Source: Methanotrichaceae archaeon (GTDB lineage: Archaea; Halobacteriota; Methanosarcinia; Methanotrichales; Methanotrichaceae). From it: 46,980 bases of DNA. Of this stretch, positions 36,109-45,530 are shown one piece after another. The stretch spans positions 1 to 46,980 of the forward strand of contig JABLXE010000017.1 in the NCBI GenBank assembly GCA_013178225.1, read 5' to 3'. A program made the translations under genes and the position numbers. The notes below the pieces were generated by a model that was not told where the DNA came from, did no database searches, and saw only the letters and a program-made list of their open reading frames with translations. Positions within the stretch are counted from its first letter, which is position 1, and every line of letters begins with the position of its first letter.

Positions 36109-36663
36109 ATGTTCGAGGACCTTTTAGACCTATACAGAACAAAGGCTGCAGAGAAAGAGAGAGAGTGGAAAGAAGCACAGGCCATGATCGATTTTATCTC
36201 GTCCATAGACAAGATGACCAGCGAAATCAGCTCCAAGCAGAACGATGTGGATCTCCTGGGCAGGCTGATCGATCAGGTGGACCGTCTCTCCAAAGAGGTA
36301 GCAGATCTGAAGAGCCAGCTTCGAGCCAGACAGGGCAGGCCGGCACCGGTCCAGGAGCCCGTTACCAACGAGGGCAAGGCGCTGGACAACCATGCCAGAA
36401 CGCTGATCGAGATAATGGCGGAGCGGCCCAGCAGGTACACAACCAGCGAGCTGGTGGATATGCTGGGCTTAAACAAGACCACGGTCATAAGCGTGATGAA
36501 GCGGGCAGTTGAGCTGGATCCGAGGCATGTCAAGATGACCCAGGGAAAAAGACGCAAGTTGTTCCTGTCTTACGTTCCCGAGGAAGAGGGCCGCATGGCG
36601 GAATCGGATTCAACCTCTGGGGATTCTGACCGGATGAAGCTTGAACTGATGGCCATGACCTGA
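36109..36663 (+). CDS. Coiled-coil protein with winged-helix/HTH domain
   Basis: In this 184-residue protein, residues 1 to about 75 form a coiled coil rich in Lys, Glu and Asp, followed by a Pro-rich linker (RQGRPAPVQEP). From about 90 to 160 it has a helix-turn-helix that reads RYTTSELVDMLGLNKTTVIS and a basic wing (KMTQGKRRKLFLS). The tail is Ser/Asp-rich. This layout suggests a DNA-binding protein that multimerises through its N-terminus, but I recognise no named family. The gene has a TATA element, a leader of about 65 bases and an AGGAG site. Confidence 0.7.
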   Translation: MFEDLLDLYRTKAAEKEREWKEAQAMIDFISSIDKMTSEISSKQNDVDLLGRLIDQVDRLSKEVADLKSQLRARQGRPAPVQEPVTNEGKALDNHARTLIEIMAERPSRYTTSELVDMLGLNKTTVISVMKRAVELDPRHVKMTQGKRRKLFLSYVPEEEGRMAESDSTSGDSDRMKLELMAMT

Positions 36664-37493: not shown

Positions 37494-37922
37494 TCACCGG
37501 CAAAGAGGGCAGCTGGTGCCCTCGTCGGCGCAGGCCATCACCACAGTATTTGAGAGGCGGTTGAACAGCCGCTGATCGGCTCCCCTGTAGGCTACAGCCC
37601 CCGCAACCAGATCAAGGGGCAGCAGAAAGGCCTTTCCGAAGCTCTCAATGGCCGAGTCCTTGAAGCCTATGCGCTCCCCTTTGGGGCCTACCACTGCCAG
37701 GTTAAGAACCATCTTGCCCAGGGACTGGCCGCGGTACCCTTCCAGCAGTGTCCAGTACAGGAAGGTCAGAACCTGAAAGAGCAGCAGGCCTAAGACGCTA
37801 ATTGGCACCAGCTGCCGTGAATATAAGGTCAGATGCCATACGATGCCCAGCAGCAAGATATCGATCAACCAGGCCCAGAACCTGGTGCTCCACTTGGCCA
37901 AAGCAATAGATGAGTCGTCCAG
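37494..37922 (-). CDS. RDD-family membrane protein
   Basis: The protein of about 142 residues has the RDD signature RFWAWLIDILLLG near its N-terminus, a second helix pair (about 40-60) and the conserved GYRGQSLGKMVLNLAVV loop. It ends in a Cys-containing tail (CADEGTSCPLC). RDD proteins are small membrane proteins of mostly unknown role, some linked to ion exchange. The start is unusual. TTG 37901 has no ribosome site, whereas an in-frame CTG at 37920-37922 lies seven bases after GGGGAGG; I use the CTG. It is the last gene of the pump operon, about 51 bases after the COG1361 gene. Confidence 0.75.
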   Translation of the reverse strand: MDDSSIALAKWSTRFWAWLIDILLLGIVWHLTLYSRQLVPISVLGLLLFQVLTFLYWTLLEGYRGQSLGKMVLNLAVVGPKGERIGFKDSAIESFGKAFLLPLDLVAGAVAYRGADQRLFNRLSNTVVMACADEGTSCPLCR

Positions 37923-37973
37923 TCCAATTCCTCCCCGAAAAAGATGCCAGAGCCAGCCCCTCGGGAAAATCCA

Positions 37974-39020
37974 TCAGGCGCCTTTTCTCCGCCGGTACAG
38001 GAAGCCCGCCGCCAGAGCTATGACTGCCACGACTGCCAGGACCGGAATTAACAGAGACTGAGCCTGAGGGCTTACGGTGACCGGGATCTTCATGCTCTCC
38101 GAGATTATGCTGTCGCCGTTCACATCTGTGTACTTGATCTCACTGTTGATGCCGTACTCCTTGGGGGTAGCATCGGAATCGACGTCTATCCTGAAGAGCA
38201 CCGTCTTTTCCTCACCGGGAGCCAGATCTCCGATAAACGCCTGGTCATCGGTAGAGGAGAACGGCTTGAAGATGGAGAGCCTGGCCACGGCATCGGTCAC
38301 CGGCTCGTCGCCAATGTTCTTGTAGGTGACCTCTATCTGAGCCTTCTTTTCCCCGACACGGGGCGATCCTTCGGCACCGGTCGGCTCGAAGTCTGCCTGT
38401 TTCTTGACAATTATGGAGAGAGGCACAGTTTGATTGGCCTTTTCATAATCGTAGGAGGCCCGAAAATTGACCAGAGAGGGGCTGCTGCCCTCAGTGGAGA
38501 TGCCGGAGGCATCGACCCTCACGTTGTTCTGGTAGTCGTAATCCAGATTGAGATTCAAGGGATAATCCCCGGATGGAGCATGGTTGCCGATCTTCACCGT
38601 AAATTTGAGTGGCGAGGTGGTTTTTTCCCCGGATTTCAGGGCCTGTACCACCTGATCTCCAGACTTGACCTCGACCTCGGTGCTGTTGGATACCAAACTT
38701 GCGGTGATGCCGAGAGCGGTGGTCTTCTTGTACTCCTCTTGCAGCTCGGCATTCTTGAGCGCGTATTCCGTGGGGTTCTGGGGAGTTCTATCTTCTCTGA
38801 ACCCCAGGATCCTGCCGAAATTGGTCAGATCCACGTAGAGGGTAACCGTGTCTCCCCTCTCAAATTCGTTGGTTCCCGCGATGCTCGCATCAAGGTCCGG
38901 GCCGCCGTACATATTATAGTAGTTGTCGCCGCCCAGCTCGTAGGGGATGTAAGTGTTCTGGGCCTGGCCAGCCATCACCAGCATTAAAAGGCCAAGGCCT
39001 AAAGCCATTCCTCTTTTCAT
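37974..39020 (-). CDS. COG1361-type (S-layer-like) exported anchor protein
   Basis: The 348-residue protein has a signal peptide (MKRGMALGLGLLMLVMAGQA) and a beta-rich exterior with two CARDB/NEW3-like domains (about 45-165 and 215-320; the second contains ITV-type VTYKNIGDEPVTDAVARL). One C-terminal membrane helix (about 322-342) ends in RRRKGA, so it is anchored with its bulk outside. Its start ATG overlaps the stop of the pump gene by four bases (ATGA), so the two are translationally coupled. In methanogens such proteins often accompany HAE3 pumps, which suggests an extracytoplasmic partner for transport; this is context inference. Confidence 0.85.
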   Translation of the reverse strand: MKRGMALGLGLLMLVMAGQAQNTYIPYELGGDNYYNMYGGPDLDASIAGTNEFERGDTVTLYVDLTNFGRILGFREDRTPQNPTEYALKNAELQEEYKKTTALGITASLVSNSTEVEVKSGDQVVQALKSGEKTTSPLKFTVKIGNHAPSGDYPLNLNLDYDYQNNVRVDASGISTEGSSPSLVNFRASYDYEKANQTVPLSIIVKKQADFEPTGAEGSPRVGEKKAQIEVTYKNIGDEPVTDAVARLSIFKPFSSTDDQAFIGDLAPGEEKTVLFRIDVDSDATPKEYGINSEIKYTDVNGDSIISESMKIPVTVSPQAQSLLIPVLAVVAVIALAAGFLYRRRKGA

Positions 39021-41347
39021 CTAGATTCTCCTCTGGCATTAATCAGATTAATCGATCTCAAGAACTGCTGCTTGGCATTCTCCAGCGCCTCACGCCGGAT
39101 CTCCATCCTCAGCATCAGGACTACGAAGACCGTGAAGGTTGTAAACAGCGCAAATATGACTGCCAGCACAGTCACCATTCCGAAGTTATTGGTGATCATG
39201 AAGGGCGAGGCGATCAGGGCTGCAAAGCCGAATATAGTCGTCAGTCCCGAGGCTATCAGCGCTGAACCGATGCGGGCAGTGGTGATCTTTAAAGCCTCGA
39301 CCGGATCGCCAACGCGGGGAAGCTCCTCGTAGAAGCGTTCCATCATCATTATGGCGTACTCAGATCCCACGCCCAGGATGAGAGCGCCCAAGGTGGCGGT
39401 AAGCGGAGAGTACTTGATGCCGGTCAGGTACATTATGCCACCCATCCAGCCGATAACAACCATCATGGGCAGCACCGGCAGAAGGGCCTTTATGAGGTCC
39501 CGGTAGATCACCAGCAGGATGATGAAGATCAAGACCAGCCCCAGCAGGGTCATCTCCGTTCTGCCGGTGGTGAGCGCGCCTATGACCGTGGTCATCACCA
39601 CCAGGTCTCCAGTCTGCCGGGCGGATACCCCGGGAGGCGGAGTCATCCATGCGATGTCTTTGTCCACCTCTTTGAGCAGGCGGTCGGTTCCCTCCGCACC
39701 CAGGTCCCGGATGGCTTCACCTACATTCATCTCTATTACTGCGGTGTCATAGCCATCCAGATACTTGTACTGAATGAATTCCGGAAGAGATTCAAAAATG
39801 TCCTTTATCTGGCCCCGGTCTTCGGGAATTTCGCCACCATTGGCCGCTTTGACGTAGTCGGCGATGCTGGTCGCCTCTTTGACCTGGGCCCTGGATTCTC
39901 TCAAATAGGTTTCGAATTCATCCATCCATTTGATGGTGACCGGGTCCGCTATATCGCCCTGGACCAGGATCTCTATTGCGCTATCGCTGCCAAAGATCTC
40001 GCTCATGTGCGTGAAGTCCACCAGAGGCGGAAGATCCTGAGGCACATAATTCTTGAAATCAGTATCTACAAGGACTTGTGTATCAGCATAGGTGCCGACC
40101 AGAGACAGAAGCAATGCGGCCACCAGCACGAACTGCCACCTCTGAATGCAGAAGTCGGCCGTCTTGGTAAGGATGCGCTCAACTATGGTCTCCTTGGCAG
40201 GGCTGGCAGCAGCAACCGCAGTTGATCCAGTTCGGCCGGACTTCTTGTAGGCGCGCCCTATCACCAGGTGCAGGACGCTGACGCCCACAAACAGGGCCGA
40301 GAGATAGCACATGATGAGGCCGATCAGGCACACCAGACCGAAGTCTCTTATCATGGGAACACTGGAACTGAACAGAGATACGAAACCCGCAGCGGTTATG
40401 GCCAGAGCTATCATCACCGGCGATGCCACATGGCTGACGGTGTTCACCAGAGCGCTGAGCGGGTCCGCGCCGCCCGTGTACTCCTCGTTCATGCGGTTCT
40501 GGAACTGGATGGCATAATCTATGCCGATCCCGATCAAGATGGGAAAAGCGGACATGGAGGCCATGGTCATGGGGATCTGAAGCAGTCCCATGGCCCCAAA
40601 AGTCCAGAAGACGCCCAGGAAGACGATGGGCAAAGGAAGCAGGGGCCACATGACGTGCCTGAAGACCAAGAGCAAGGCCACGATCATGAGCAGGCCCGCA
40701 ATGGCCATGAGCGGGCCGTTGCTCTCGTTCATCTCCGCAATTATGGAATCGCTGAGGGCTGCGCTGCCGGTTGTGGTCAGGGTAATGCCGGGCGGAAATT
40801 CGGCCATTGCTATTGCAGAATCCAGCTCTGTCAGGATCTCTGAGCGATCGTCAGAGGTCAGATACATCGGCGTCTCCACCGCCATCATGGTATGCTTGCG
40901 ATCGGGCATAATGCCCGCTACGATCTGTGGATCCAGGGAGGCAATGAGGGAATCGATTACCTCCTGGCGGTCGGGGATTTCACGAATGCCGCTCTGTCTT
41001 TGCTCTGCGTCTGCCACTATGCCGGCAATACTTTGCACATCGACCACGCCTGGGGCATCTACCATCTGATCCGAGAGGCGGAGCATGGCCTGGAGCACAT
41101 CGGCGTCGGCCACATCTTCGGCCTCTATTAAAACCACGATTGACTCGGTCCCGAAACGCTCCACGAAAAGGTGATCGAATATCTGGTATAGCGTAGATTC
41201 TTTGCCGACGAAGGTCTCGGTCTCAAAACCCTTCATCTCGATCTGCTGGGCGTAGTGATAGGAAGCCAGAGAGAGAAGTACAGCCACAACTACGATTATG
41301 ACCGGATTTTTGGCGATCCAGAAGCCCAATCCTTCCAGCTCTTTCAC
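39017..41347 (-). CDS. RND-superfamily transporter, HAE3/MMPL type
   Basis: The 776-residue protein is built of two similar halves. Each half has one helix, a large external loop and then a five-helix bundle. Helix 1 is about residues 13-30. The helix-4 proton-relay motif is GIGIDYAIQF in the first half and GVGSEYAIMM in the second, where Glu replaces Asp. Members are proton-driven exporters of hydrophobic or lipid-like molecules; the cargo here is unknown. The start is GTG 41347 with GAGG eight bases upstream. It is the first gene of a three-gene operon, and its promoter region contains a perfect inverted repeat shared with the divergent GbsR-like regulator. Confidence 0.9.
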   Translation of the reverse strand: MKELEGLGFWIAKNPVIIVVVAVLLSLASYHYAQQIEMKGFETETFVGKESTLYQIFDHLFVERFGTESIVVLIEAEDVADADVLQAMLRLSDQMVDAPGVVDVQSIAGIVADAEQRQSGIREIPDRQEVIDSLIASLDPQIVAGIMPDRKHTMMAVETPMYLTSDDRSEILTELDSAIAMAEFPPGITLTTTGSAALSDSIIAEMNESNGPLMAIAGLLMIVALLLVFRHVMWPLLPLPIVFLGVFWTFGAMGLLQIPMTMASMSAFPILIGIGIDYAIQFQNRMNEEYTGGADPLSALVNTVSHVASPVMIALAITAAGFVSLFSSSVPMIRDFGLVCLIGLIMCYLSALFVGVSVLHLVIGRAYKKSGRTGSTAVAAASPAKETIVERILTKTADFCIQRWQFVLVAALLLSLVGTYADTQVLVDTDFKNYVPQDLPPLVDFTHMSEIFGSDSAIEILVQGDIADPVTIKWMDEFETYLRESRAQVKEATSIADYVKAANGGEIPEDRGQIKDIFESLPEFIQYKYLDGYDTAVIEMNVGEAIRDLGAEGTDRLLKEVDKDIAWMTPPPGVSARQTGDLVVMTTVIGALTTGRTEMTLLGLVLIFIILLVIYRDLIKALLPVLPMMVVIGWMGGIMYLTGIKYSPLTATLGALILGVGSEYAIMMMERFYEELPRVGDPVEALKITTARIGSALIASGLTTIFGFAALIASPFMITNNFGMVTVLAVIFALFTTFTVFVVLMLRMEIRREALENAKQQFLRSINLINARGESR

Positions 41348-41367
41348 GGCTTCAACCTCTTGATATA

Positions 41368-41384
41368 GTAAATTCGGAATTTAC
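41368..41384. promoter_or_regulatory. Perfect inverted repeat, probable operator
   Basis: GTAAATTC-G-GAATTTAC is an exact eight-base inverted repeat around one base. It lies in the 89-base gap between the divergent pump operon and GbsR-like regulator genes. It overlaps the upstream edge of the minus-strand TATA-like ACTATATC (about 41360-41368). Both shape and place fit a site for a dimeric winged-helix regulator. Confidence 0.6.
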
Positions 41385-41410
41385 CGAACGTACGGGACAT
41401 AGCGAAAGCT

Positions 41411-41421
41411 ACTTAAAACTT
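41411..41421 (+). promoter_or_regulatory. TATA-like element of the regulator gene
   Basis: ACTTAAAACTT is centred about 25 bases before ATG 41440, which would give a leaderless message. Confidence 0.4.
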
Positions 41422-41439
41422 ATGGTCTAGGAAGATTTG

Positions 41440-41958
41440 ATGGGCCAAGAAGAATGGGGCGTGCTCAGGAAGTATATCGTTGATGCCTGCGTCAAGACCG
41501 CAAATAATAGGGGCTATTGTGACGCAGTAGGCGTTCTCCGGGGAACGCTCATGCTGAAGACGGACCCCGTTTCCCTCGATCAGCTGGTGGAGGAGACCGG
41601 CTACAGCAAGTCCACCGTAAGCTGTAACATGAGCATACTGGAGCGAGTGGGAATGGCCAGGCGGGTGGTCGTCCCGGGGGACAAGAGATACTATTATGTC
41701 CCGGTCACGGAACCTGATTCTCTGCGCCAGGCCATGCTCGCTCATATCAAGAAAGAGATTCAGATGATGATGGAAGCCCTGGATCTGACCGAACGAGAGC
41801 TGAAGGACCAGGACAGCAAGGGATCCCAGGACGTCCTGGCCCGGGTTGAGGGCATCAGGCATTTCTACAGGCAGACTGAAAGGCTCCTGGATCTCCTGGC
41901 AAATTATAATACCGATGAGATCATAGACCTTCTGGAAAAAGGAAAGCTGCAGGATTAG
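41440..41958 (+). CDS. GbsR/MarR-like winged-helix transcription regulator
   Basis: In this 172-residue protein, residues 40-90 form a winged helix with recognition-helix region GYSKSTVSCNMSILERVGMA and wing VVVPGDKRYYYVPV. A long helical C-terminal part (about 95-170), typical of GbsR-type dimers, follows. I chose ATG 41440 because of the TATA-like element 25 bases upstream; the adjoining TTG 41437 is in the same frame. It is divergent from the pump operon across a perfect inverted repeat, so it most likely represses the pump operon and perhaps itself. The ligand is unknown. Confidence 0.85.
   Translation: MGQEEWGVLRKYIVDACVKTANNRGYCDAVGVLRGTLMLKTDPVSLDQLVEETGYSKSTVSCNMSILERVGMARRVVVPGDKRYYYVPVTEPDSLRQAMLAHIKKEIQMMMEALDLTERELKDQDSKGSQDVLARVEGIRHFYRQTERLLDLLANYNTDEIIDLLEKGKLQD

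Positions 41959-42113: not shown

Positions 42114-45530
<3,417 letters not shown>

Follow-up and report, generated by a model that had tools for sequence, protein, structure and literature searches.

A conserved inverted repeat is a predicted operator between divergent GbsR-type regulator and HAE3 exporter genes of Methanotrichaceae

In the genome of a Methanotrichaceae archaeon, the gene for a GbsR/MarR-type regulator faces that of an HAE3-family exporter across a short intergenic region, which raises the question of whether the regulator controls the pump and through which sequence element. Within the window, the whole stretch of 46,980 nucleotides that was analysed, the pump, COG1361-like and RDD genes follow one another on the minus strand, with the regulator gene divergent on the opposite strand (Table 1). 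The pump and COG1361 genes share 4 nt (39017–39020), and 72 nt separate the COG1361-like gene from TTG 37901, the called start of RDD; RDD orthologues begin ~10 codons upstream of this TTG. The regulator–pump gap is 89 nt counted from TTG 41437 and 92 nt from ATG 41440, the latter being the probable value because most orthologues begin at that ATG. A preliminary description of this DNA had placed the genes, the 4-base overlap and the divergent regulator in the same way, and its family assignments are borne out by the profile scores and the fold match given below. Our pattern and protein searches of the 2.98-Mb source genome found regulator and pump in a single copy each.

Table 1 Positions of genes and intergenic elements in the window
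Feature	Coordinates	Strand	Description
RDD-family small membrane protein	37494..37901	-	PF06271; start codon uncertain
COG1361-like surface protein	37974..39020	-	348 aa; signal helix, tandem Ig-like/NEW3 domains, C-terminal membrane helix, basic tail
HAE3-family RND exporter	39017..41347	-	776 aa, GTG start; TIGR00921
Palindrome GTAAATTCGGAATTTAC	41368..41384	.	genome-specific; overlaps the conserved operator
Predicted operator ATTCGG-AATTTA-CCGAAC	41372..41389	.	family form GTTCGG-N6-CCGAAC, conserved
Regulator BRE/TATA	41402..41418	+	window GCGAAAGCTACTTAAAA; family consensus CGAAAAGTACTTAAAA; per-column conservation
Conserved block CTTATGGTCT (family GTTGTGGTC)	41419..41428	.	downstream of TATA; 1.4–2.0 bits at most positions
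GbsR/MarR-type winged-helix regulator	41437..41958	+	172 aa, probable start ATG 41440; profile, fold, AlphaFold

The regulator is related to MJ223 and GbsR in both sequence and fold. A profile search of solved structures gave 1KU9 (MJ223) as the best match (E = 4e-16), and 1KU9 was again best in the fold search (4e-10), which also revealed similarity to MepR; the AlphaFold model has a pLDDT of 93. MJ223/1KU9 is the template used for GbsR (PMC6207618). The CudC model (NF047500) scored 38 bits, far under its equivalog cut-off of 218; a choline-sensing role was rejected on this score, and no choline-regulator claim is therefore made. The pump matches TIGR00921 over its full length (residues 14–744; 631 bits against a curated cut-off of 352), carries MmpL-type repeats and, among solved structures, is distantly related to MmpL, SecDF and HpnN. 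D277-Y278 and E663-Y664, one pair in each membrane half, are invariant in the orthologue alignment and, by analogy with known MmpL proteins, are likely proton-relay positions. By its sequence, the pump is likely to be driven by protons and to export hydrophobic or amphiphilic material.

In the predicted structure, the COG1361-like protein opens with a signal helix at the N terminus, followed by tandem beta-sandwich domains and, at the C terminus, a membrane helix; this fits a membrane-anchored extracellular protein and supports its earlier description as a partner that acts outside with the pump. Its NEW3/NPCBM_assoc score is 27.9 bits against a cut-off of 24.4, and the COG1361 assignment was judged from this match and the model rather than from a COG profile. 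A sequence search of the PDB found no match for it, and fold searches returned generic Ig-like matches only, with low TM-scores. The RDD protein scores 49.5 bits for PF06271 (gathering score 24.1), with the conserved Arg and Asp of the family, R7 and D14, nearly invariant. One bacterial RDD protein has been reported as a cation/H+ antiporter (PMC5996927), an analogy that we take as a lead only for the protein here.

The regulator gene faces the pump gene in 36 of 37 Methanotrichaceae (Methanothrix-type) genomes, the window included; in one of the 36 (G005), a TnpB-like gene lies between the two. A COG1361 gene comes next after HAE3 in 31 of the 37. Several of the exceptions are contig ends, and three loci (L052, L071 and L072) have a pump without COG1361 in intact surroundings. 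This conservation supports, in outline, the locally regulated export operon of the preliminary description; that the operon is inducible, as it was worded there, we infer. The RDD gene had been called a less usual third member, which holds in so far as it occurs in only 10 of the 37 genomes (the window's included; as second gene where COG1361 is missing) and mostly in a paralogous second cluster, but it is a recurrent third gene. Three main-cluster copies contain it (the window, L042 and L055), as do most complete loci of the second cluster, whose pumps group together with support in the pump tree. Five loci of that paralogous cluster (L073, L080, L081, L082 and L122) have a second, diverged GbsR gene after RDD on the same strand; in L073, the unit is flanked by a regulator gene on both sides. 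At L060:1-6754, a single GbsR gene precedes two tandem HAE3–COG1361 pairs, and the pump of the second pair is a long branch in the tree.

The preliminary description had drawn attention to an exact inverted repeat, GTAAATTC-G-GAATTTAC, between regulator and pump, and had held that a lack of conservation upstream of orthologues would refute it. The repeat is present letter by letter and is unique in the source genome, allowing up to 2 mismatches in a pattern search. Its mere presence proves little, because the 47-kb window contains 13 perfect palindromes with 8-bp arms and spacers of 0–10, two of them with a 1-nt spacer. In orthologues it is matched with a mean of 5.3 mismatches in 16 positions, only two being at 3 and none better, and its left four bases (GTAA, 41368–41371) fall outside the conserved block, in columns of 0.2–1.15 bits. 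The exact palindrome was therefore rejected as a conserved operator. The TATA-like element said to overlap it exists as TATAG (41364–41368) but is not conserved in relatives.

What is conserved is a second dyad, TTCGG-N6-CCGAA, which overlaps the palindrome and has its centre 4.5 bp away, so that the proposal of an inverted-repeat operator in this region stands as a class of element. Scored over its 12 positions, (G)TTCGG-N6-CCGAA(C) was found with a mean of 2.09 mismatches in 46 divergent GbsR/HAE3 intergenic regions, orthologous and paralogous, from 34 other genomes; dinucleotide shuffles of the regions gave a mean of 5.04 (sd 0.12, minimum 4.72), statistics that overstate independence because the motif was derived from and scored on the same, related sequences. 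This repeat outscores every other dyad of the aligned region, with 4.36 of 6 pairs matched, compared with a mean of 1.58 (sd 0.58) across all centres. Conservation is uneven: the repeat is perfect in 2 of the 46 regions (L035 and L072), several sites are weak (4 mismatches), and in genus g10 it is divergent or doubled.

Outgroup and orphan genes offer fairer tests. Upstream of 41 Methanosarcinaceae/ANME pumps without GbsR, the mean was 5.46 mismatches, with none below 4. Pumps that lack an adjacent GbsR gene keep the repeat, with 1 mismatch in L111 and 2 each in L127 and L130; the last two resemble each other and probably represent a single lineage, which reduces the orphan pumps to two cases. 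The repeat was not found upstream of GbsR genes without an adjacent pump, nor upstream of the second GbsR genes behind RDD (3–6 mismatches). By these comparisons, the repeat goes with the pump rather than with the regulator gene. At L044:2691-3806, a TnpB/OrfB-like gene, which overlaps the regulator start by 4 nt, separates the regulator from the operator-bearing promoter and leaves both operator and TATA on the pump side, which favours neither gene as the one that the operator serves. In the source genome, the predicted operator is the only 1-mismatch site that does not fall in a long open frame; three further places with 1 mismatch were rejected as sites, since their cores are GC-rich and they overlap long open frames. 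The same pattern search found no second convincing intergenic site that would indicate a genome-wide regulon.

The conserved TATA of the region is the regulator's own, CTTAAAA (41412–41418). The BRE/TATA element lies at a nearly fixed distance after the repeat and ~25 nt before ATG 41440, the latter spacing implying a leaderless regulator transcript. In most orthologues, ~26–37 nt separate the centre of the repeat from the aligned pump start downstream of it, a position at which the core promoter of the pump is to be expected. Candidates for the pump TATA are the AT-rich core of the repeat and the regulator's TATA read in reverse, between which the sequence does not decide; in the latter case, the conserved block downstream of the TATA could possibly be the BRE of the pump promoter. 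The wider conserved block holds further CGAA-type elements.

These features are best accommodated by a model, which we consider fairly probable, in which the local GbsR-type regulator represses the pump through TTCGG-N6-CCGAA. A regulator dimer would sit on the 18-bp inverted repeat and exclude TBP/TFB or RNA polymerase, and since the repeat falls inside the core promoter of the pump, binding would repress the pump operon; the regulator's own promoter, ~30 bp away, might also be affected. An intracellular ligand, perhaps a substrate of the pump, would free the regulator from the DNA. The pump, presumably proton-driven, could then export a compound of hydrophobic or amphiphilic nature, with the anchored Ig-like protein presumably working alongside it on the outer face and the RDD protein perhaps serving as an accessory membrane protein.

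Two other roles for the same repeat were weighed. GbsR bound there could activate the pump or mainly autoregulate its own gene, and the position of the repeat relative to the regulator's TATA, ~32 bp upstream, is open to activation; the conserved block also continues through the regulator's BRE/TATA. We nevertheless judge this unlikely, as the repeat overlaps the core-promoter region of the pump, is kept by pumps without an adjacent GbsR gene and is missing at GbsR genes without a pump; moreover, characterised GbsR relatives are repressors released by a ligand (PMC6207618). The repeat could also be the site of an unrelated global transcription factor, the GbsR neighbourhood being incidental. 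GbsR binding to it is a prediction, and the additional CGAA-type elements would fit such a factor, but the source genome yielded no comparable second intergenic site and the motif and GbsR share the same phylogenetic range, which makes this explanation very unlikely.

It is more improbable still that the exact palindrome is itself an operator, confined to the source species: its perfect 8-bp arms, its location and its uniqueness in the genome are set against the divergence of the orthologues, the variable columns under its left end and the frequency of such palindromes in the window.

The regulator shares fold and size with the MarR-type repressors GbsR, OpuAR and CydE (PMC6207618) and, with MJ223/1KU9 as closest solved structure, likewise adjoins a transporter gene, here one probably under its control; no link to compatible-solute uptake or cydAB is seen at this locus. 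Whereas the gene neighbourhoods of archaeal GbsR proteins have given no consistent picture (PMC6207618), Methanotrichaceae show a fixed GbsR/HAE3 pair, so that a specific predicted operator and a fixed gene partner can now be proposed for archaeal GbsR proteins. The full-length match, MmpL-type repeats and D-Y/E-Y motifs place the pump in the HAE3 family of the RND superfamily, with the solved relatives MmpL and HpnN, but it is paired with an Ig-like COG1361 protein anchored in the membrane in place of the periplasmic adaptor and outer-membrane channel of bacterial RND systems. MepR is a MarR-family repressor encoded beside the gene of the efflux pump MepA. That arrangement, a local MarR-type regulator of similar fold adjoining an exporter gene, resembles the one described here, which differs in pump superfamily, in its archaeal core promoter and in operator sequence. 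Literature searches on COG1361, HAE3 or GbsR with methanogens found nothing on a GbsR/HAE3 operon, and no study of RND exporters of Methanosarcinales methanogens and ANME-2 was found in the literature searched.

Outside the family, HAE3 occurs with two COG1361 genes in 36 of 44 loci, none of the 44 has GbsR beside the pump, and a TrmB-type gene lies nearby in about half. The clusters of Methanosarcinaceae and ANME-2 encode a homologous pump (38–48% identity) and surface protein, but differ in having two COG1361 genes and neither RDD nor GbsR. Their TrmB-family regulators (L136–L184) stand upstream, divergent or downstream of HAE3–COG1361–COG1361, a varied placement that suggests repeated exchange of the local regulator. 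Taken across Methanosarcinales methanogens and ANME-2, the gene order points to a partnership between COG1361 proteins and HAE3 pumps. We tentatively propose, as a reading that may well prove wrong, that the two make up a so far uncharacterised exporter of two parts in Methanosarcinales, with membrane-anchored Ig-like proteins replacing the bacterial RND adaptor, under a lineage-specific local regulator (GbsR with TTCGG-N6-CCGAA in Methanotrichaceae, TrmB-type elsewhere) and with a second paralogous copy that adds RDD in some Methanotrichaceae. Contigs labelled Bacteroidales and Dojkabacteria (L164 and L178) also carry a Methanosarcina-like HAE3–COG1361–COG1361 cluster, probably through binning contamination.

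Further genes accompany the locus. Downstream of the regulator gene and in the same orientation, the window encodes a hybrid histidine kinase (42114–45530) with PAS, GAF, HisKA and receiver domains, which might belong to the same response as the operon; similar kinases lie downstream of the regulator in several relatives (L035, L039, L040, L041, L043, L045 and L047). At 36109–36663, the window encodes a 184-aa coiled-coil/HTH-like protein for which a Pfam search gave no match, and in L036, L040 and L041 the cluster is accompanied by a 185-aa gene in a comparable position.
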